From assembly GCA_963989385.1 (NCBI GenBank), contig OZ022508.1, positions 27,178,166-27,242,165 of the forward strand: DNA of 64,000 bases, in the 5' to 3' direction. The stretch comes from Ctena decussata. Lineage: Eukaryota > Mollusca > Bivalvia > Lucinida > Lucinidae. The position numbers and the translations under genes were made by a program. This document shows positions 30,148 through 48,150 of this stretch, in pieces. How positions within the stretch are numbered: position 1 is the stretch's first letter; the number at the start of each line of letters is the position of its first letter. The notes under the pieces are model-generated. The model had not been told where the DNA came from. It saw nothing but the letters and a program-made list of their open reading frames with translations, and did no database searches.

Positions 30148-31228
30148 ACTAAACTGTAAACATCCGTCTGAAAACAAGACCGAAAGTCAGTCGGATTCGA
30201 AAGAGTTGGATCTGTTTATGTAGATTCCGATTGCAGTCAAGTTTGATAACAAAATTTTCGTTTCTTCTCCTGAAAAGGCTCTACTTAATTATAGAACTGC
30301 AAATTTTCGGATAGCGTAATACGTAATCTCCGATTTCATTAATTCAGCGATTTACTATTAGGATCAACAAACAAACAGCATGCACTAACATGCTCTGTAT
30401 TCAGATATGGTAAAAACGAAATTTTTCATGCAAACAAAGACAATTAAAGAACAGACACATTTCTTGCCAACATACTACATAACCGCCAAGGGCGTAGCTA
30501 TCTATACGGCAAATACGCAAGTGCGTATTGAAATTTTGTCAAAATTGACAAAATTTCAAAACGCATCTGCATATTTGCATGCTAAAAATTGATGAATTAG
30601 ACAAGATTCCAATACCAACTGTCACAGTGGCTGAAATGCTACCTTTCCCTTCAAGGAGAAGAGTTTCAAAATGATTGTGCGTATCATGAAATTGGTCCTA
30701 GTTACGCCCCTGACCGCCATTCAATGCACTTACTATAGTATGTGGCCGCCTCGATTAAGCCGTTCCCTTTTGACAGTTATGCTGTCTTCCATTTGTATGG
30801 ACCTTTTTTGTGAAAAGGTTACTGTATATATTTCTATAGATATAATTTAGTAGAGTGCACATTTATTAGATAAGCATTGCATACTTCAGATTAAATAAAT
30901 ATGTTTAAGTATGTTCCAATGAGCTGTCATCTCGGAAAGTTATCGTTGAGTTGTGTCTTTCCAGACTGAATTGCCACTTGTATAAATCAAATTTTAACAG
31001 GTTCGCCCACTCTGGTATACTTACTTTCTCTATCCAGTACATAGAGGCTAATCAACAGAAGGGACACAAGTACAGAAATATTCCCTCGAGGCGCTGCTAA
31101 TACAATCATGTCATGACTTTTAAATAACATACCCTGATACTTCTAGAATTTAGATCTAACCTTGTTTGACGTTTTGTTTGATATCCGTAAGCATTTTCAC
31201 CATTTGCTCAGCTGGGTATATAAAATGT

Positions 31229-31463
31229 GAGCCGCGACGCGACAAAACCAACAATGTGGTAGTGCGCCCAGCAAAGACTCAGATCAGCCTGGGCATCCGC
31301 CCAGTTGGATCAGAGCCTTTGCTGTCCGCATGTTGGTAGCTCAGACCCTTAACTACCCTTTGAGCACTTGGCAAAGAGTCAGCTCAAACTGGGCGGATGC
31401 CCAGACTAATCTAAGTCTGCGCTGGGCGCACAACCACATTGTTGGTTTGTCGCGTCGCGGCTC
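31229..31463 (-). mobile_element. ~235-bp hairpin MITE, family H
   Basis: Ends GAGCCGCGACGCGA and CGCGTCGCGGCTC, flanked by ATGT on both sides. Central orientation as in the copy at 24901 (GTAGCTCAGACCCTTAACTAC). It lies 0.5 kb upstream of the retrotransposon. Confidence 0.87.
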
Positions 31464-31965
31464 ATGTATATTTAATATACACATTTTCTTCCTCTGATCA
31501 AACGGGAAGGTATATACGTAGATAGTCAATGATCAGGAACTAATACACTAAAATCCCATATCCCGCCCTCAACACCAAAAGGGAAGGAAGTATTTACATA
31601 TAGAAAAGTTTACAAAAGACACGCACGGAAAAAACAGAAACAGACCAAACTGGTGGTCATTCAGCTACCTCGGTTATAAAACAACAATCTGTCATTTCGG
31701 AATTCAAACTACTGTAATTTGCAAAGATTATACGGGTCTTTGTGTCACTTGCGGTGAAGTCGGTTTCGGTGGCGGTTAACATTCTTTTTTTCTTTTGCTT
31801 TTGTAGCGGAGTCGGTTAAGCGCTTGCCAGATAAGCTAGCGGTCTGGGTTTGAATACGTAAACAGAGCTGCATTGCACACAACATTTCATCATTATACTT
31901 CCGTCGGCTCGATATGGTTGAAAACAATTTAAATGCTTGTGAAACCACAGGATATTCGTTTCACC

Positions 31966-32019
31966 ACCCCCGGTGACGTATGCTGATAAAACCGTGAATT
32001 GATATCATTCCGTGGCTGT
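31966..32019 (+). repeat. Split direct repeat A1 (54 bp)
   Basis: Begins ACCCCCGGTGACGTATGCTG and ends CCGTGGCTGT. Repeated without visible difference as A2 at 39371-39424. It forms the left terminus; the flanking TTCACC to its left resembles the TTCA at the end of B2 and at the B1-A2 junction, the probable recombination core. Confidence 0.92.
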
Positions 32020-32094
32020 AATCCAAGCAGACCGAACGTGTATTTTGCTGATTCCTTGGACTGTACAATTTTAGGTAACTATATTTTCTTATAT

Positions 32095-32384
32095 GACCAA
32101 GAGGGTCGATCGTCTTTTGCTATCAAGAGGGTAGCAAAAGCAAGAGTTGTTTTGTTGAATTTAAACCAAGAGGGTTTAAATATAAAAAAAAAAATGAAAA
32201 AAGAGAAACTGAATAAATAAAAGAGAGACCAAGAGGGTCCTATTGATATGATATTGTAGTCAAGAGGGCTACAGTATAAGGCCAAGAGGGCTGAATTTGT
32301 TGATTTTGTAGTCAAGAGGGCTACAAATATATAGGGCCAAGAGGGTCGATTTTGTTGATATACTATATTTTAGCCAAGAGGGCT
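32095..32384 (+). ncRNA. Array of nine AAGAG-loop hairpins in the retrotransposon leader
   Basis: Nine stem-loops all have the five-base loop AAGAG closed by C-G and then a C-G or T-G pair. Spans: 32095-32107, 32114-32140, 32159-32181, 32227-32239, 32251-32277, 32280-32292, 32305-32327, 32335-32347, 32372-32384. Stem lengths are 4, 11, 9, 4, 11, 4, 9, 4 and 4 pairs. Loop and closing bases are constant while outer stem bases differ and remain paired (third pair A-T, G-C or G-T; fourth G-C, T-A, A-T or G-T). This covariation within one array is direct evidence for selected RNA structure. They lie between A1 and the first ATG of Gag, i.e. in the genomic RNA leader. A Gag-binding, packaging or translation-control role is an inference. 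Confidence 0.85.
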
Positions 32385-32871
32385 TTGCATAATTGTTTTA
32401 ATATTATGAGGCATACATGTTTTGCAGTTTCGATTGATAAGGATTGTTATGCGATATTTCTAACTTTTTGATAAAGAATATTTCAATATAATGCATCGTT
32501 ATTTGTTAGGAGTTGTATGAATTGTTATTGTCAAACGATCCGCTTAATATTAAATTCGTCTATGATTCGTTATGAAAGATTAGTGTCGAAAATTGTCTAT
32601 GTAACCTGGAAGATTTACGGTATTGTAATGCCGTGCCGCTTCCAATCAAGTTTGAGCATTTTATCACGTGACTTTATTGCATCTTATTATGACGTCTTGT
32701 TTTTTGAGATTTCATGAATGAAAATATTTGTTTGCTTAGTAACCGGTCATGTGACTCGTCTTGACCGTGAGATGTTCCCTTTTTTGGCTAAGTGGAAACA
32801 GGCGTGATGTATCCAGTTTTCGCATACCAGTGTATTGCTCGCTTATCTTATTTATTAATGTTTTTTCAGTG

Positions 32872-33174
32872 ATGCCGCCAATTACTCTCAAGAGACATTA
32901 CAATCTGGTCGGTAGAAATCTAATGCCAATCTTGGTTAAACTCAAACAAGAGCCTACTCCAGACGTTTTTGCTCGCCCAAAAGCAAATAAGTCAATTAAC
33001 GGCATGCAGCTAAATGAGTTGGCGCAACTTTACAAAGAGATAACGGGCGAATCTGGGGACGTCATGTTTGAAATGTCTGGGCTTAGACCAACTTTGGAGA
33101 GTTGGAAGAAACTCCTGCATTTCACTATTCTACATGCGAATGAACAGGGTGTGCCTTCTGGTCAAGAATTGGAG
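32872..33174 (+). CDS. Gag-like protein, exon 1
   Basis: The ATG at 32872 is the first plausible start in the long frame; upstream codons in this frame lack an ATG. The 101-residue segment is rich in K, E and L with no recognised domain. The frame continues to a stop at 33223-33225, but a GAG|GTTTGT donor sits at 33174/33175 in phase 0. The frame of 34584-35237 begins after a matching phase-0 acceptor. Position ahead of RT and the zinc knuckle in the second part make this the N-terminal half of Gag, the RNA-binding structural protein that would assemble with genomic RNA. Alternative: a separate small ORF that ends at 33225. A TTTTTTCAG at 32861-32869 just before the ATG could be another acceptor, implying a leader intron. 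Confidence 0.6.
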
Positions 33175-34583
33175 GTTTGTTCTTTTCGTATATGTACCTG
33201 GCTTGTCGGTATCCGTGTAGCTTAGGACGTCAGCACAGACTCCTCTGTTGAGGCCATGATTTTCTTATTTACGGAATTTACGGCTTTTGAAACTGTACTC
33301 ATTGTGAATTTTACCGTTATCGCTGATTAGGCTATTAAGCTCAGTGTCTGCGTATCCTTGTTATGTTATACATATAGAATGATTTCACGAGTATTTAGGA
33401 TACCCTTCGAGGGGGCGTAGCCCCCGAGAAGGGTATCCTAAATATGAGTGACATCATTCTATATGTATTTTGTATCATGGCAGCCAATCACATTTGTCTA
33501 TTTTGAATTAAAAACAGCTCTTATCATGCTTATCCAGTTTTTAATGAAGAGTGGCATATCTACTGTAATTATATCTCCTACAGCTGTATTGTTCTTGACC
33601 TGAAGGTCAAATAAATCACCTGGCAATTATAAATTCCAGCACAGCTTCAACTGAAAATAACATAAAATTATGTCTGCATATTCTGTTGAATTTATATTAC
33701 TTGACAGAAATGATGATTTTTCAACACACTGATTTTACAACCAATATCTTAAGAATGGCAAATAGAGCAGTCTTAGAGGGCATTTACTTCTGCTTATTCA
33801 GCTGCCTAATCTGGGTCTTTACTGTTTGCCACAATACTTAGGGTCCATACCGTAGAGTTTGGTGCTACAAGATAAATTGTCTCTGTAATCTTAGATATGG
33901 CCTTGTTCCTTCTTTGAATGAAAATGAAATGGAGCTGTGCTCAATAAAATAGGTCTTCAGCCATGTGTAAACTGTAAACGCTTGGATCAGTTTGCAGTCT
34001 GATCACTCTTTGATATTGGAAATGCAGATCCCTCAGGTTCACTACCTTGTTGATAGAACACTGATCAGACTGAGCGGATGCAAATGATGATCAAAATATA
34101 TGTTTTCTTTGCAAATGCTCAAAGACCGTTTTCGTCCTAGTGCTGCAGCTCAGTTGTTCAATATAAATCAGACTTGACAGAACCGTGCAATAACTAAGCC
34201 GTGCAGTATATCTGTGATATCCGCACAGTTATCCTGATATCCGCACAGTTATCCAGGTACACTTCAGTGTAAAATGAATGCAAAGTTTAGCTCCGCCTAC
34301 CCCAGAATTGTCTTACAGTGCAAGTTAACAAAGTTAATGAACAGGCGACTTCAAAGGAAAACACAGAAAGCCATGATACAACAATTGTTAATGGCTTAGA
34401 TTGTTTCTTTTTCCTAATTACGCATAATGTTATCTCTAGTTGTCTTGACTTATCAGGGAATTATTTCATTCATACAAATTGTATTCTCTGTACTTTAAGA
34501 GTTCATTTGTTTTAGCTGATTATTTCATTCATAAAGTTGCACTCTCTGCTATTTACAAGGTCATTCACAATTTTATTTTTAAG
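33175..34583 (+). other. Probable spliceosomal intron in gag (1,409 bp)
   Basis: Donor GTTTGT at 33175 and acceptor TTTTATTTTTAAG ending at 34583 both fall between codons. The interval has stops in every frame and no coding character. It holds a 95-bp palindrome (33371-33465) and a degraded family H-like stretch (about 33970-34090: GATCAGACTGAGCGG). A retrotransposon that passes through a spliced or unspliced RNA should lose an intron unless genomic RNA escapes splicing; introns are nevertheless known from DIRS-type elements. The segment might instead be an insertion that separates the gag halves. Confidence 0.5.
33371..33465. repeat. 95-bp palindrome with GC-rich centre
   Basis: CATATAGAATGATTTCACGA pairs with the complementary arm ending in CATTCTATATG. 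The centre is CGAGGGGGC-gta-GCCCCCGAG, with the same G(C)GTAGC turn as the hairpin at 8292-8310. Probably a small foldback element inside the presumed gag intron. Confidence 0.75.
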
Positions 34584-35237
34584 GACGACGACAAGATTGA
34601 TTCTGAAGTGCCACCTAAGAAAAAAACAAAGTCTACAAGCTCTACTTGTACATCGGCTACAAAAGAAGACACAGAAGCTTCAGTTACCAAGATAAAGGAC
34701 AAGGTGAGGAGCCTTTGCCTCCAGAACAACCCAAGTGAACAGCTTATTTTACTCTCCCTTGATGAGTTGGTACAGACATGCCGTGCACAATCACATGAGG
34801 ACACTGACATGTTTATGGAACTTTCAAGACAGGCCCATATTAATCAGGGCAAGTTCAATATGGCATCATTTGTGTTAAGTGTCCTTGGTGGTAAAGCTTC
34901 GGATATTATTACTAAAGCTCTGTCTAAGTCTCTTAAGTCCAAGAGCAAAACAGATGATAAAAAAGATGACCCAAAGGAAAAGTCCGGCTCTCAGTCCTCA
35001 TCGCCTCTTTCGAATTTGTACCCCCCTGGGTATATGCATTACTCGCCTGTGTACCCTGGTGGCTATGCACCTCCATTTTCAAATTATGGGTCAGGATTTA
35101 TGCCGAATTTTTCACGCTCTGGCAGAGGTGCCTTCCCTAGATTTTCCTTTCGTCAGAGAGGAAATTGTCTGTTTTGCGACAGCTCGACTCACTTGGTTAG
35201 GGACTGTGAGAAAATGAAGCAGGCAAAACCTAAGTAA
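34584..35237 (+). CDS. Gag-like protein, exon 2 with CCHC zinc knuckle
   Basis: Frame open from 34479, taken from the acceptor at 34583. The order is: an acidic then K-rich segment (DDDKIDSEV, PPKKKTKS), a helical middle region, a K/D-rich linker, a P/Y/G-rich stretch (about 35020-35125) and a C-terminal zinc knuckle with Cys-x2-Cys-x4-His-x4-Cys (C, C, H, C codons at about 35166, 35175, 35190, 35205). The stop is at 35235-35237. CCHC knuckles bind nucleic acid in retroelement Gag proteins. With exon 1 the product would be about 318 residues. The hairpin array in the leader is the obvious candidate RNA partner (inference). Confidence 0.75.
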   Translation, partial: DDDKIDSEVPPKKKTKSTSSTCTSATKEDTEASVTKIKDKVRSLCLQNNPSEQLILLSLDELVQTCRAQSHEDTDMFMELSRQAHINQGKFNMASFVLSVLGGKASDIITKALSKSLKSKSKTDDKKDDPKEKSGSQSSSPLSNLYPPGYMHYSPVYPGGYAPPFSNYGSGFMPNFSRSGRGAFPRFSFRQRGNCLFCDSSTHLVRDCEKMKQAKPK

Positions 35238-35585: not shown

Positions 35586-36698
35586 ATGCGATATTCAAAC
35601 CAGGAGATTCGAATCTTAGACTGGGAGTATGAGGTGAATTTTTCGCCAGAATCGGTACTACCAGAACGCAGGGATCGTACATCTTGGGTTACTCTGGACG
35701 GAGGACAGGTCGCTGCTTCGGCTCACCCTAGTGCTGAGCAAGTTTTATCTAATAACTTACGAGTTGATGTTAATGTGTTGCCACTGAGGGATTCGAACTC
35801 GTTTGTAGCCGGTCAGCTACATGCATGTTGTAGTGAATGGGAAAAGATTTTATTGCATGATTCTAATAATGAGTCAGCAATGGTTCGCAGGTGGATTAAC
35901 GAGGGCATTAGTATACATGACTTTTTCAGCTCATTTAAGGGTAATTTTAAGGGTCGTGCTTATGATTCCCATACACCGCCTCCAATGTTCTTTCAGAACT
36001 CGCACACGTGCAGGGAATTTTCGGAGTTTATTATCAATGAGCTGTATGAAGGGATCCGTTGTGGTTCTTTGCATCTTTTAGGAAGAGTAGGTGAATGCGA
36101 CCCGCCGCATATTATTATGCCTTTGACAGTAGAACCTTCCAAACCAAGACTTTGTCATGATGAACGCTACCTTAATTTATGGATCAAAGATTGCCCTTTT
36201 CAACTTGAAACACTCAGAGATATACATCGTTTAGTGGGACCTGGGGCCACCATGGTTACTTGCGATGACAAATCTGGATATTCACATGTCCGGCTGAACA
36301 AAGAATCTCAGAAATATTTTGGTATTCAATTTGCTGGCTGGCTTTTATGTTATGCATGTCTTCCCTTTGGTTGGAAAGCTTCGGCTTTTATTTATCAGAC
36401 TATTGGAATGCAGGTTACTTCGTACTTGCGTTCATATGGGATGTTGATGACTCAGTATATCGATGATCGATTCGCTTCAACAAAACAGGTGGCTCCCACT
36501 GAAGACATGACTACCAGCTCCTGTCTGTCCTGTCTGTCTAATGGTGACTCTATCGTTTATATTCTCTTAGAAATTTTGACAAGACTAGGTTATACCTTGG
36601 CGATAAAAAAGTGTCAGTTGCACCCCTGTACACGGATAAAATTCTTAGGGTTTTATGTCGACTCGATTCTGCAGGCATATATTCTGCCAGATGACAAA
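35586..36698 (+). CDS. Reverse transcriptase of DIRS/PAT-like element (frame broken at 3' end)
   Basis: ATG at 35586; the frame runs to a stop at 36750-36752, but homology-like sequence leaves it at the A7 run 36696-36702. RT motifs in order: SKPRLCHDERYLN at residues 185-197, DDKSGYSHV 227-235 (first catalytic Asp), LPFGWKASAF 259-268 and the YIDD box 291-294, followed by a LGF.VDS thumb-like segment near 355. This enzyme copies the element RNA into DNA. The RH domain continues in the +1 frame from about 36703, so RT and RH were one polyprotein in the ancestor. The break is either a one-base insertion in the A run or a slippage site; a similar A run in functional copies would decide. The N-terminal 130 residues have no recognised motif. 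Confidence 0.88.
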
Positions 36699-37812
36699 AA
36701 AACGAAAATTCATAGATTTAAGAGAGCTAATACTTTCTGCAAACAGGGTTGACATAAAAACTCTTCAGCGTTTTGCTGGGAAATGCATCTCCATGTATCT
36801 TGCTATCCCAGCTGCAAAACTATACTGTCGTGAGGTTCACGCTGCTATTTCCTACTGTATGAAGAATTCGGAAACGATTCCCTTGTCTGCAGCTTTAAGG
36901 GAGGAAATCGAGTTCTGGAAATTCTTAGATAATTGGGAGGGTTATTCTTCTTGGCGCAAAGAACAGCATCAGCAGTTCTTTCTTGTAACAGATTCGTCTA
37001 CGTTTCGATATGGTGCAAAGATACTTTCTGGCAGTTTAAAAGGCCTAACTTTTGGTGATTTTTGGATGCCAAATGACCAACGGCCAATTCATCTGAAGGA
37101 GGCGGAGGCTGTCTTAAAGGCTTTACAATCATTAGAAAGTCAGCTTCAAAACTTCAGAGTAGATTTATGGTCGGACAACTCTGCAGTTGTGTATTGCTGG
37201 AATAACCAAGGCTCTCGCGATTCCGCCCTGAACAGTATTATGAAACAGATTTTTCAGTTTGTATATCGAAATAATATCAGTTTAACTGTCAAATATATCC
37301 CTTCAGCTTTAAATCCTGCTGACGCCCCGAGTCGTAATATACGACTGTCCGATTCCATGTTACAGTCCTCAGTCTGGAGTAACTTGGAGGAAATGTTTGG
37401 CCCTCATTCGGTTGACCTCATGGCTTTAGATTCAAACGCCATGCAGTCGGCGGATGGACATTGTCTACGCCATTTTACCCCAGGTCCGTCTCCAAAAAGT
37501 TCAGGTGTCAATGTCTTTGCACAAGATATCTCCTTAGAGCTGAATCCATATGTTTATCCACCTTACAATTTGATCATGCCACTGCTTTGTTTGCTGAAAG
37601 AACAGAAAGTGGGAAAATGTACTTTGGTTGCTCCGGAGATGAACCCAAAACCTTTGTGGTGGTCTCTTCTGATGTCCAGTGTCCAATCATCTGTACGGTT
37701 AGGCGATATAGGGGAGAAAGGGGTCATTTGTGTTCCCACGAAACGCGGATATATACAAGACAAAGTCGGCCTAAGGTATCCGTTGTGGGCTTATCGTATC
37801 CAATTTGTCTAG
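36699..37812 (+). CDS. RNase H plus methyltransferase-like region (RT-RH polyprotein, second part)
   Basis: The frame is open from 36655; sequence resembling the RT-RH linker begins at KRKFIDLREL after the A7 run. Numbering from 36655, a connection segment with LQRFAGKCISM (38-47) and IPAAKLYCREV (51-61) leads into RNase H with a D-E-D-D set: D113 in TDSS, E149 in KEAEA, D174 in SDN and D223 in DAPSR. Residues 250-385 form the region which in DIRS/PAT elements carries a DAM-like methyltransferase; here VDLMALDS (253-260), VYPPY (300-304, the DPPY-like position) and LVAP (324-327) fit. The catalytic Asp of DPPY is replaced by Tyr, so methyltransferase activity is doubtful. The protein stops at TAG 37810-37812, one base before the recombinase ATG. 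Confidence 0.85.
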
Positions 37813-37813
37813 G

Positions 37814-39049
37814 ATGGGTTTCATGTCATTTCAGATTGGTGCGGTTTCACAAGTTCGCATGCAGGCTATTCAAGCGAGGCTAGAGACTATTGATTCACAG
37901 CTACAGTCTTCTAAATCACTAAGAAGGCAGTGCGGTGTAGAAACTAAACTGTGTAATTTCTTGTTTTCACTTCCAAATCAGCCGGATATTCAATCTGCAT
38001 CTCCTGAGGACATTCGCAAGTTCCTTGTTTGGTACGATAAATATGGCAAAACACAAGTTCATTCTTTCACTTGTATTCATATTGGACAGCGGGGAGTATT
38101 TGACTGTTCATGTCCTGTTCGTTTGTCTTCTAGTTCGTTGAAGAATATAGTACAACAACTTCGCACTCTTTTCCAGGCTCATGGGAAACATACACCATGG
38201 CATTCCCTACGTCAGGACGGTAACCCGGTCGATTCCCCAGTAATTGACATGTATATTAAAGTAATTCAGGAGGGGCAGGCTAGGGCGCGTATCACCCCGC
38301 GACAGGCTAAACCAATGTTTGTGAGCAAACTTAAGCAAATTTCTTTGTACATTACTCAGCAATTAAAAAGACGTGATCTCACATTGCGTGAACAGTTTGT
38401 CTTTGTTAGAGATCAAGCACTATTCAAAATGCAATTTTTTGCCGGAGACAGGGCTAGTGATGTGGCCAATATTTTAACGCAAGAGGTGAAAGAATTGCCA
38501 GATAAGTCCGGCTTTGTATTTGAACATACGTTTGGGAAGACACTTCGCGGCGGCGATCATTCTAATTTATTTGTCATAAAGCGCTGTAATGATGCTGTTA
38601 TTTGTCCGATTGCGGGTCTTGAATATTATTTTGCGCGTTCAAAAGCTTGGAAGGTTGATCTGAGTCAGGGATATTTGTTCCGCCCTGTGTCAGAGAAAGG
38701 ATTCGTACAAAATGCTAAGCTGTCATACTCCGCTATTCATGACAGGCTAAGTAAATACCTGTCAGCTCTCGGGATTCATGAGGGTGAAACACCGCATAGC
38801 CTTCGCGCAGGTTGCGCCTTGTCTTTAGCCCTCTCTGATGAAGCTGACACAACGGCTATCATGAATCATGTTGGTTGGCGTAGTACTCGTAGTGCTCGAT
38901 ATTACTGCCGATCACAACTGTTACGTAGTGCGAACCACACGGCTTCCACCCTTGCTGACTCAGTCTTAGATCATCATTATACTGCAGAGAGCTTTTACAA
39001 GACTAATGCAGATTTTTCTGACTTGAGTTCTCCATTTTATGCATCCTAA
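37814..39049 (+). CDS. Tyrosine recombinase of DIRS/PAT-like element
   Basis: First ATG at 37814; the frame is open from about 37775, so a start further upstream by recoding is possible. Counting from the in-frame TTG at 37805, box I Arg is R216 in FFAGDRASDVANIL, the HxxR is H331-R334 (PHSLRAG), the second His is H355 in NHVGWR and the nucleophile is Y366 or Y367 in ARYY. All catalytic residues of the phage-integrase family are therefore present. An upstream Cys/His-bearing segment with C-S-C-P (about 101-104) is typical of the N-terminal part of these recombinases. The enzyme would integrate a circular DNA copy at a short core shared by the split repeats. About 411 residues; intact frame, consistent with a young copy. 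The stop-start junction TAGGATG suggests coupled termination-reinitiation. Confidence 0.9.
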   Translation: MGFMSFQIGAVSQVRMQAIQARLETIDSQLQSSKSLRRQCGVETKLCNFLFSLPNQPDIQSASPEDIRKFLVWYDKYGKTQVHSFTCIHIGQRGVFDCSCPVRLSSSSLKNIVQQLRTLFQAHGKHTPWHSLRQDGNPVDSPVIDMYIKVIQEGQARARITPRQAKPMFVSKLKQISLYITQQLKRRDLTLREQFVFVRDQALFKMQFFAGDRASDVANILTQEVKELPDKSGFVFEHTFGKTLRGGDHSNLFVIKRCNDAVICPIAGLEYYFARSKAWKVDLSQGYLFRPVSEKGFVQNAKLSYSAIHDRLSKYLSALGIHEGETPHSLRAGCALSLALSDEADTTAIMNHVGWRSTRSARYYCRSQLLRSANHTASTLADSVLDHHYTAESFYKTNADFSDLSSPFYAS

Positions 39050-39293
39050 TATGTAAATGGCTTCTAGTTATAGTTTTAAGTGTTTTGTTCTCTCATTTTG
39101 CGATTTTGTTGTGTTGTATTATGGCGCATAATTTGATTTCTGTAGACTGTACAACCTAGTTTTGCTATATATAATAAATAGTATGTATACTGATTCTTTT
39201 TTGTCTTTCTATGTCAGAGGTGAGTATTGGGAATAGAGTCTTGGGGAAAAAGTCGTGGTTATAATGTAGAGGTGTTGATGCCATTGTTAAGCT

Positions 39294-39369
39294 TTTTCAT
39301 GGCTTCTTTTTTCCCAATACTTTACAAGTGAACGAGTGCATCAGATGAAGGTCACCGCGGATGTGTTCA
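39294..39369 (+). repeat. Split direct repeat B1 (76 bp)
   Basis: Begins TTTTCATGGCTTC and ends CCGCGGATGTGTTCA. Identical by eye to B2 at 39553-39628. Separated from A2 by one base, giving the B1-A2 junction from which the RNA ends are rebuilt during replication. Confidence 0.92.
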
Positions 39370-39370
39370 C

Positions 39371-39424
39371 ACCCCCGGTGACGTATGCTGATAAAACCGT
39401 GAATTGATATCATTCCGTGGCTGT
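39371..39424 (+). repeat. Split direct repeat A2 (54 bp)
   Basis: Same 54 bases as A1 at 31966. The 128 bp between A2 and B2 (39425-39552) is unique and includes GAGGTTTCCTTTAG / CTCAGGAAAAAAC inverted segments. Confidence 0.92.
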
Positions 39425-39552
39425 GAAATAAGTTAGGAGGGCGCTGAGTTTGAGGTTTCCTTTAGCTATGGCTATGTGATTCTATGATAACCTCAGGAAA
39501 AAACCCACCCTCCCACCACGATGGTTTGTGTCTGTATGCGCTTGTTCACGCC

Positions 39553-39628
39553 TTTTCATGGCTTCTTTTTTCCCAATACTTTACAAGTGAACGAGTGCAT
39601 CAGATGAAGGTCACCGCGGATGTGTTCA
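39553..39628 (+). repeat. Split direct repeat B2 (76 bp), right end of element
   Basis: Second copy of B1. Sequence identity ends at GTGTTCA, after which host sequence TTACATATTT begins. Confidence 0.9.
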
Positions 39629-39771
39629 TTACATATTTACATTTCCCTAATGCTTGCGAGTGTTTTCGATGCAAAGCGGAATGGTGAAAGCTTGACAATT
39701 AACCCGAGAGATTGCATAGATAGTTGTGTTAAATGGTATGCAAAGTAAAAGCTATAGTTTTGAAGGTATAT

Positions 39772-40007
39772 GAGCCGCGACACGACAAAACCAACAATGT
39801 GGTTGTGCGCCCGGCGCAGACTCAGATCAGCCGGGACATCAGCCCAGTCCGATCAGACTCTTCGCTAAGCGCTTAAAGCGTAGCTAAGGGTCTAAGCTAC
39901 CTCCATGCGGACAGCGAAGACTCTGATCAGACTGGGCGGATGCCCAGGCTGATCTGAGTCTGCGCTGGGCGCACAACCACTTTGTTGGTTTTGTCGTGTC
40001 GCGGCTC
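39772..40007 (+). mobile_element. ~235-bp hairpin MITE, family H
   Basis: Ends GAGCCGCGACACGA and TCGTGTCGCGGCTC, flanked by ATAT on both sides. Few arm mismatches. Confidence 0.9.
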
Positions 40008-40593
40008 ATATATCAAAAAGAGAGGACTAATAGCATCAGGACCCACAGCTTTGCATAGTTAAAGTGAGTCTTAACTTCTATGATATCAGCTATTTGAATT
40101 ACTATTTTTGTCAAGGAAGTACCGTTTTTTTCCAACAAATGTAGATAAAATGAACTTGAATCATCACGTGAGATTGGAAATTAATCTGTTTTTGTTTTCT
40201 TCTTGGTATCCCTTTACCAGTATGGAAATGTCGTCCTGCCGATGTTGGCCGGCAACGGACGAAGAAAATCGTCATGGCATGTGGTCCGTTGATTCAAACC
40301 GTGCGTAGTTAAGGGATTCCGACTGTATTGTCGTTCAGTTCCGAAGTAAGCTTACAAAAACAAAATTGTACAGGAAATAGTATTACCCGGACCTAACATC
40401 TCTCAATCCGAAACAAAATTACATTTAATCAGATCTGTCTGGTATAATGTCAAAAAAGAATTCTTTTAAGTACACTTAATTGCTGTTAACACCATCTCAT
40501 GCCATGAAAAATCTGGAACAAATTTGAGCAAACAGATCAGTACACATATCCATATCAGCGACTTCCCTGTCGCGGCATCCCTCTATACATTCT

Positions 40594-41226: not shown

Positions 41227-41373
41227 TCATAGACTAGTTTGATTTATTCTATTCGCAGATATGTAAAGCAACTTTTTCGGATGACGCAGCTAACATAAAG
41301 AAGAACCAAGACTATCGCTAACATGTGCAAAATAATCAGTTGATATGAACCCACTAGTAGGTTGTTCACATAT

Positions 41374-41609
41374 GAGCCGCGACACGAGAAAACCAACAAT
41401 GTGGTTGTGCGCCCAGCGCACACTCAAATCAGCCTGGACATCCGCACAGTCTTACCAGACTCTTTGCTAAGCGCTTAAAGGTTAACCAAGGGTCTAAGGT
41501 ACCTCTATGCGGACAGCGAAGACTCTGATCAGACTGGGCGGATGCCCAGGCTGATCTGAGTCTGCGCTGGGCGCATAACCACATTGTTGGTTTTCTCGCG
41601 TCGCGGCTC
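41374..41609 (+). mobile_element. ~235-bp hairpin MITE, family H
   Basis: Ends GAGCCGCGACACGA and TCGCGTCGCGGCTC with ATAT on both sides; same orientation as the copy at 39772, 1.6 kb away. Confidence 0.9.
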
Positions 41610-41649
41610 ATATATCACTTGGCACATTTTCTCGTCAATAGGTCATTTT

Positions 41650-46794: not shown

Positions 46795-48150
46795 TGAATT
46801 TATATTCCGCCGAAATGGCTGATTTGTTTATGGCTTATTTTCAGTTTGATAAATTTTTGTTCACTGGCTTCTTAATTATGACTGAAGCTGTGGACTTTAA
46901 ATCAAGAGGCAATAACCCATGTATAAGTGAGGCCATTCAAAACAACTTGCTTCAGCATCATCTCGCTGTGATGATATATATATATATATATCAAGTTTCA
47001 AGAAATTTTGTTCATTTGCAACTTAGTTATGGCTTATTCGTGTATTATAAAATCCAATCAATGACAGTAACTCATGCATTACTGATGTCATGATGACAAA
47101 ACTTGACGTTAACAGTCATGTTATGATGATACGTAATTGTTTTAAGTTTCGTGAAATTCCGTTCACTGGTTATTTAGTTATGCCTCATATTGTCTATTTT
47201 AAAGCAATTCAAGGGCATTAACTCAAGCATTACTGAAGCAAGTCCAACAAAACTTAACATGCATCCCCCCTGTTATAATAATACATATTTAGTATAAGTT
47301 TAATAGAATTCCATTGAATGCTTAGTTATGGCTAAATTGGTTGATTTCAAATTAATTCAAGGGCAATAACTCATGCATTACTGATGTCACTCTGACATAA
47401 CTTTATGTGCACAACTGTTAAATAGTGATACACGTTTATTTTAAGTTTCGTGACATTCTGATAATTTGTTACTTAGTTATGGTTCATTTAATCATTTTGA
47501 AAGCAATTCAAGGGCAATAACTCAGGCACTACTAAAGCCAGTGTGACGAAACTTCATATGCATCAGTGCCTTATAGTGGTATATATTTACATGTATTTTA
47601 AGTTTCATGAAATTCTGATAATTAGTTATTTAGTTATGGCTCATTTTATCATTTTGAATGCAATTCAAGGGTAATAACTCCTGCACTATTAAAGCCAGTG
47701 TGACGAAACTTCACGTGCGTCAGCGCCTTATGGTGTTATACATTTACCATAAGTTTCATGAAATTCCGGGGCCGGGTAGCGCAATCGGTAGGGCACCTGA
47801 CTCGTAAGTCAGAGGTCCTGGGTTCGAATCCCGGTCTGGCCACATACTTTCGTTTCTCCTTCCGCTGATTCAAGAAGGGCAGTTGTCAGTTACTGGCGAA
47901 AGTATGTGCACTTAGTACTGGTTAACCGCTTAGGAGGTCTAAGCCTGCCCAGGAATAGTGTGGTTAGGTTAGCTGACCGTCCCGACATGACCTTAGTTGT
48001 TTACCGTGGACGTTAAGCATCAAATCAACCAACCAACCAAATCATGAAATTCCGTTCAATGGTTACTTAGTAATGGCTCTGGACGGACGGAAGGACGGAC
48101 GGACGGACGGACATGGAGAAAACTATATCCCTCCGCCTTCGGCGGGGGGG
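46795..48150 (+). repeat. Tandem array of ~155-bp units ending in GGAC microsatellite
   Basis: Units share TTAGTTATGGCTCATTTTAT, TTCAAGGGCAATAACTCA and TGACGAAACTTCA near 46870, 47030, 47190, 47345, 47500 and 47650. After an inserted SINE, the array ends in GGACGGACGGAAGGACGGAC and CCTCCGCCTTCGGCGGGG. It shares its end with the inverted copies at 50155 and 55160. Pearl-like build. Confidence 0.65.
47769..48041 (+). mobile_element. tRNA-derived SINE, family S1, inserted in the array
   Basis: Flanked by a perfect 13-bp duplication TCATGAAATTCCG (47756-47768, 48042-48054), showing insertion into the tandem array. The head is a tRNA-like sequence (GGCCGGGTAGCGCAATCGGT... GGGTTCGAATCCCGGTCTGGCC) with A and B boxes and a pairing acceptor stem, anticodon region CTCGTAA. 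The body contains CTTCCGCTGATTCAAGAAGG and a tail GTTTACCGTGGACGTTAAGC, then CAAC repeats. Second copy at 52649. Confidence 0.88.

Follow-up and report, generated by a model that had tools for sequence, protein, structure and literature searches.

A young PAT-type tyrosine-recombinase retroelement of the bivalve Ctena decussata carries in its leader a real, strand-specific and conserved array of RNA hairpins, the function of which we infer. The window, by which we mean the whole stretch of 64,000 nt that was analysed, holds nine of these hairpins at 32094-32384 (+ strand), each with the loop AAGAG, a closing C-G pair and at least four pairs. New here is the position of the array inside a predicted leader intron which ends two bases before the gag ATG; an earlier, sequence-only reading of the same DNA missed the splice-like sites around the array, and these change the likely mechanism. 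Our preferred reading, held tentatively and a little short of probable, is that the array, on the element's sense transcript, would act as a multivalent tag for genomic RNA, with Gag as its probable binding partner.

To our knowledge it is an open question by what means DIRS/PAT elements select their genomic RNA, and we know of no earlier cis-acting genomic-RNA signal for tyrosine-recombinase retroelements. The array is a compact, strand-specific and conserved candidate for such a signal, and would be one if splice status licenses retrotransposition, as proposed below. Its constant loop on free stems would also make it convenient for testing how RNA is recognised multivalently by protein outside retroviruses.

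Members, pairing and strand of the array

The nine hairpins are as follows, stem lengths being uninterrupted pairs with G-U counted:

32094-32108, + strand: hairpin 1, loop 32099-32103, 5 pairs
32114-32140, + strand: hairpin 2, loop 32125-32129, 11 pairs
32159-32181, + strand: hairpin 3, loop 32168-32172, 9 pairs
32227-32239, + strand: hairpin 4, loop 32231-32235, 4 pairs
32251-32277, + strand: hairpin 5, loop 32262-32266, 11 pairs
32280-32292, + strand: hairpin 6, loop 32284-32288, 4 pairs
32305-32327, + strand: hairpin 7, loop 32314-32318, 9 pairs, tandem-duplicate relative of hairpin 5
32335-32347, + strand: hairpin 8, loop 32339-32343, 4 pairs, tandem-duplicate relative of hairpin 6
32372-32384, + strand: hairpin 9, loop 32376-32380, 4 pairs

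Longer stems (9-11 pairs) are thus confined to hairpins 2, 3, 5 and 7. The octamer CAAGAGGG is invariant across all nine hairpins of the window copy, and the unit RYC-AAGAG-GGY recurs in eight of them (2 to 9), hairpin 1 sharing the octamer. Pair 1 is C-G throughout and pair 2 is C-G in six hairpins and U-G in three; pairs 3 and 4 vary between hairpins (A-U, G-C, G-U and, once, U-A), and within the inner four pairs every one of the 36 cells is a standard pair. Further AAGAG words within the array, at 32142, 32201 and 32221, do not form the hairpin. Hairpins 5-6 and 7-8 constitute a tandem duplication of about 52 nt, so that the count of nine given by the sequence-only reading stands but corresponds to some seven independent units.

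Nine same-loop 4-bp hairpins were observed against a maximum of three in 2000 dinucleotide shuffles of a 300-nt region with any pentamer loop allowed, and 300-nt windows stepped every 100 nt likewise gave at most three away from the array. When the 3' arms were dealt anew, 10 of 20000 shuffles reached the observed total of paired bases. The nine hairpins were also made into a covariance model, which recovered eight of them in the window at 24-28 bits, the next match scoring 11.6 bits; hairpin 5 is missing from the matches, probably since one of its bases overlaps a neighbour. The only Rfam match over the window is a tRNA at 47770-47842, and none falls in the array.

Both sides of pair 3, and likewise of pair 4, have changed with pairing kept in four of the nine hairpins, and the resulting covariation score between hairpins was reached by one of 500 shuffles. 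The inner four pairs comprise 31 Watson-Crick and 5 G-U pairs and no A-C; since the G-U pairs are spread over five different hairpins, which require them, the full set of nine can form only in the sense RNA, and the antisense strand or DNA hairpins would lose about half. The earlier description of the hairpins as RNA-like agrees with this asymmetry and with the fold z, which is -4.84 (sd below shuffles) for the sense strand versus -2.64 for the antisense. Same-loop hairpins counted in stepped 300-nt windows peak at the array at 8 on the sense and 3 on the antisense strand, and the best-placed stretch holds nine, sense.

These pairs bear directly on the notion of a DNA-level site, be it for the recombinase, for a host DNA-binding protein or as a cruciform. 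A conserved octamer repeated nine times in direct orientation is what such a site might look like; however, the G-U pairs in five of the nine cores would be mismatches in DNA hairpins and a DNA site has no need of complementary variable arms, which makes this explanation very improbable.

The element, its copies and its derivatives

The element runs from CACCCCCGG at 31965 to GTTCA at 39628, with the following parts:

31965-32019, + strand: A1, left terminal repeat, 100% repeat with 39370-39424
32872-33174, + strand: gag exon 1 (inferred), open frame, gag ATG at 32872
33175-34583, + strand: gag intron (inferred, phase-0), containing a 1017-bp insertion at 33365-34381
34584-35237, + strand: gag exon 2 (inferred), open frame, zinc knuckle C-X2-C-X4-H-X4-C
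35586-36752, + strand: reverse transcriptase (RT) frame, PF00078, E 4.3e-12
36655-37812, + strand: probable RNase H frame, overlapping RT in another frame; RT_RNaseH E 0.067 and DNA_pol_viral_C E 0.0055, under the Pfam cut-off
37805-39049, + strand: tyrosine recombinase (YR), ALOG_dom E 2.7e-16, Phage_integrase E 1.6e-7
39272-39369, + strand: B1, 93% to B2 with gaps, 99% over 79 nt
39370-39424, + strand: A2, identical to A1
39528-39628, + strand: B2, right end of the element

The split direct repeats (A1-B1-A2-B2) and the presence of RT and YR, both on the + strand, are criteria for PAT elements of the DIRS group, and by those of PMC4157794, as far as its available passages go, the element is classed as PAT-type from its sequence. 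The same passages describe Pat1-like PAT elements of the DIRS group as having A1-B1-A2-B2 split direct repeats, RT, YR and a Gag zinc knuckle, all of which this element shares. A methyltransferase would set it apart from Ngaro; no such domain was matched by Pfam, at E up to 1 in 36655-37812. The YR bears an ALOG-type N-terminal domain (Pfam). The element's Gag has one zinc knuckle and basic stretches; the knuckle was spotted by eye in the frame 34479-35237 and no Pfam match supports it. In two copies, L018 and L022, the 5' GT of the inferred gag intron is changed. The 1017-bp insertion belongs to the window copy only, being absent from the 19 other loci which span the point, one of which (L027) carries other DNA there. 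At its left end is a near-palindrome with two 49-nt arms (33368-33468). A 248-nt palindromic repeat occurs three times in the window (31225-31472, 39768-40015 and 41370-41617), two of these lying within about 500 nt of the retroelement, one on either side.

Within the host genome (1.66 Gb) the leader has 29 matches in 25 loci (L009-L033, L009 being the window copy); L034-L037 are by position further pieces of L028, L031 and L033. Seven near-identical long copies (window, L010-L015) were found, the six others at 97-99% in this stretch. The copies share the element start and differ in their flanks, the left end being constant in 18 of 20 loci inspected, where the start string was found. An element that is young, and a leader that belongs to a tyrosine-recombinase retroelement, had both been proposed earlier, and these copies and their termini, with the Pfam matches for RT and YR and the A1 repeat, support both.

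Nine mid-size copies (L017-L023, L025, L026) have lost most of RT, the RNase H and most of YR. For seven this was read in the tail locus (L171, L175, L178, L180, L182, L188, L189); for L017 and L022 the same loss follows from the leader-tail distance and from YR matches limited to residues 363/364-414. One deletion (36004/36006|38895) is common to four unlinked tail loci (L175, L176, L182, L188), and in seven loci in all the YR match starts at residue 359-364; a second (36323|38832) is common to L029/L038 and L189. Since each deletion is common to unlinked loci, such forms multiplied in trans, without RT and YR of their own. Locus L024, which its leader-tail distance had suggested to be full-length, matches YR residues 363-414 only, probably has the common deletion plus other DNA, and was kept out of the nine. 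Over exon 1 and part of exon 2, gag is broken by frame-breaking indels, stops or a deletion in seven of eight mid-size copies (all but L025 were included), L018 being the exception in the parts examined.

Three short forms retain both termini. Two of them keep the array, wholly in L016 (32721|39221; nine of nine hairpins) and as hairpins 1-7 in L032 (32328|39023); the third, the 450-bp L190 (32015|39228), has A1 joined to the tail and no array. Another locus, L030, has lost its left end, and hairpins 2-4 and 6-9 were detected in it, hairpin 5 overlapping its neighbour. The array has grown by duplication, as is seen in the 5-6/7-8 pair and in an extra tandem duplication of 32226-32359 in L029. 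Within the family one can compare nonautonomous derivatives that have the array, one derivative that lacks it and one locus in which it has expanded, all of natural origin. A search with the tail gave at least 43 matches (40 of 103 candidates scored). Among them are array-less tail-only copies (L172, L173, L177, L179, L183, L186, L187, L193) with the exact right end 39628 and ragged left ends at 39206-39233 (within about 30 nt); A1 was not seen within 1.5 kb upstream of the tail-only copies, nor in the stretches read further upstream of L191 and L192, nor upstream of L193.

Conservation and predicted splicing of the leader

Constraint was assessed on 19 complete leaders (window, L010-L027), with L028-L033 left out. 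The expectation that other copies of the element would have the hairpins holds: nine of nine are kept in 12 leaders, eight in six and seven in one, or 163 of 171 hairpins intact. Variable columns number 4/72 in the octamer, 3/45 in the loops, 20/122 in the stems, 32/129 in the spacer and 41/162 in the flank; for A/G columns only, the figures are 3/45 (loops), 10/61 (stems), 22/78 (spacer) and 20/75 (flank). The octamer is the best-kept sequence of the leader (4/72 variable versus 73/291 for spacer plus flank; Fisher p = 7e-5), as a binding site would predict, and the stems differ from spacer plus flank at p = 0.03. All these p values are rough, columns being treated as independent and shared ancestry being ignored. 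In the nine mid-size copies the octamer is again distinguished (2/72 versus 50/291, p = 5e-4) and the stems are not significant (14/122, p = 0.09). Taken by themselves, the seven long copies give no significance for the octamer (1/72 versus 14/291, p = 0.17), and their stems have no variable column (0/122, p = 0.007). Because the octamer is kept in derivatives which lack most of RT and YR and in which gag is mostly broken, the sequences point to a cis RNA role for the array. The derivatives were located by way of a leader search, and array retention among them is partly a matter of ascertainment.

Covarying stems, as claimed by the sequence-only reading, are found between hairpins; among young copies compensation is weak. 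Stem changes within the family, counted as alleles per pair, are 9 G-U, 2 Watson-Crick, 4 A-C, 5 other and 10 gap, that is, 11 pairing-keeping versus 9 pairing-breaking alleles, and the 9 G-U versus 4 A-C is little above chance. The case for covariation therefore stands on the comparison between hairpins. A 150-row hairpin alignment, the best 150 of 198 matches, leans to paired rows and no conclusion was drawn from it.

The hairpins might be a tandem-repeat by-product without present function, an inverted-repeat-rich minisatellite spread with the element, and the 5-6/7-8 duplication, the extra duplication in L029 and the youth of the copies are all in keeping with this. We nevertheless regard it as distinctly unlikely: the other hairpins share little besides the octamer and are still paired, no part of the leader is better conserved than the octamer, derivatives included, and drift would not prefer G-U over A-C in the cores.

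Two splice-like sites enclose the array:

32075-32080, + strand: predicted 5' splice site TAG|GTAACT, read from the sequence
32860-32869, + strand: predicted 3' splice site, a T-run with CAG, the gag ATG (32872) following two bases later

Of 22 aligned rows, 20 hold the first stretch, and GTAACT is kept in all 20 (in L025 the two bases before GT are changed); TTTTTCAG|TGATG at the second is also kept in 20 of the 20 rows (of 22) holding that stretch. The predicted leader intron (32075-32869, 795 nt) would enclose all nine hairpins, the array beginning about 20 nt past the predicted 5' splice site. With the array inside it, unspliced RNA alone would carry the array. The genomic copies contain these predicted introns, so the RNA that was copied must be unspliced, and an array surviving only in unspliced RNA is well placed as a mark of that RNA.

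The preferred reading, in which the array marks genomic RNA, would work as follows. A sense RNA, presumably transcribed from A1, would present purine loops on stems with no constraint on their outer sequence. Splicing would remove the array from the gag mRNA together with the leader intron, and the unspliced RNA, the sole RNA able to rebuild an intron-bearing element, would retain it. The element's Gag would most likely read the loops, and by doing so would select and pack the unspliced genomic RNA for reverse transcription. The computed observations that this scheme seeks to join are the hairpins, their strand asymmetry, the conservation of the octamer, the preserved splice-like dinucleotides and the persistence of the array in RT/YR-poor derivatives. 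Against it, the array-less L190 has both termini, so that the array may be dispensable, provided that its loss did not follow insertion. The weak compensation among the young copies, the non-significant octamer in the seven long copies and the lack of an array in the five readable 5' regions of distant relatives weigh on the same side. A further proposal is that retrotransposition is licensed by splice status: nine Gag docking sites in the leader intron would mark only the RNA that escaped splicing. We see this as possible, if leaning to the unlikely side; if true, it would account for the persistence of introns in a retroelement that bears them.

The reader of the loops could instead be a host RNA-binding protein, which could hinder or favour removal of the leader intron, or help unspliced RNA to be exported. 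The start of the array so close to the predicted 5' splice site suits such a role, and retention of the array in broken-gag derivatives is consistent with any trans-acting factor, of host or element; as loop reader, a host factor fits the data almost as well as Gag. We consider the host-protein account unlikely all the same, as no given host factor is indicated (the region has no Rfam match) and the array occurs in one family only among those read, though a host factor would be open to others.

The unspliced leader contains 20 upstream ATGs versus one in the predicted spliced leader, a difference that also speaks for the preferred reading; 19 of the 20 are inside the predicted intron and the remaining one, in A1, opens 5 codons. 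Together with the sense fold z of -4.84 this invites an explanation by translation control, in which stacked hairpins and upstream ATGs, or a bound protein, keep unspliced genomic RNA off ribosomes. Upstream ATGs would suffice for that without identical loops, however, and the short hairpins, at about -3 to -5 kcal/mol, would hardly stop ribosomes; we judge it improbable.

Relatives and comparable systems

A YR search of the host genome, with 101 of 118 candidates scored, gave at least 72 matches, the lowest at 23% identity. The 5' regions of seven YR relatives were read, the matched stretches having 30-54% YR identity. Five of them contain a recognisable Gag or RT (L194, L195, L196, L199, L200); L197 and L198 showed no element part and are uninformative. 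No AAGAG hairpin of four or more pairs was present on the element strand in the seven 5' regions, and CAAGAGG occurred once, in L198. In L194, the nearest YR relative (54%), an unrelated tandem repeat fills the 5' region and obscures the leader. The five readable 5' regions of these distant relatives (YR identity 54% or less) contain no such array, which on this sequence comparison looks specific to the present PAT-type family among those read.

Two other candidates were discarded. A CCAAGAGG cluster on C1 (L159) is repetitive, coding-like sequence and not an array. Viral contigs gave at least 120 stretches with the three-octamer pattern, taken from their number to be chance and coding matches, and two stretches matching the YR query, neither a relative.

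Retroviral psi lies past the major splice donor, between leader and gag, and consists of cis RNA hairpins that spliced RNA lacks, a situation the array would share if the predicted splicing takes place. It differs from the array in having few and unlike stem-loops where there are nine alike here, and gag of the present element itself seems to need splicing, unlike the psi case.

Similar in working are the packaging signals of HBV, which, in the passages available of PMC8677749, are stem-loops with an -RGAG- loop bound by the core protein. Like the array they are several stem-loops with a common purine loop and variable stems on an RNA to be reverse transcribed, and the AAGAG loop contains AGAG, recalling -RGAG- (PMC8677749, same passages). 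The HBV sites are dispersed, at least some of them in coding sequence, and are looser structures, according to the available parts of PMC8677749 and PMC7612645, whereas the array comprises nine clustered, strict 5-nt loops in a leader, recognised here from sequence alone. The likeness is an analogy of working, not membership. The available passages of PMC4157794 name no hairpin array for PAT elements, and no word beginning with 'stem' appears in that paper. A full-text literature search, whose scope took in few subscription papers, gave no such array in the titles or abstract openings among the matches listed. The array would represent multivalent, packaging-signal-like RNA sites in an element group for which the literature search listed none.

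A second YR family in the same genome (L199:101-800; L201, L202, L203) has, upstream of gag, an irregular array made up of ten GCACGTG and four GAGAGCTC motifs, kept in four copies at 96-99% identity. It resembles the hairpin array in being an irregular series of repeated short motifs in the 5' region; it differs in that the motifs contain palindromes (CACGTG, GAGCTC) and that there is no constant loop on variable stems. The GCACGTG/GAGAGCTC array may answer a similar need in another way, or be a set of transcription-factor sites.
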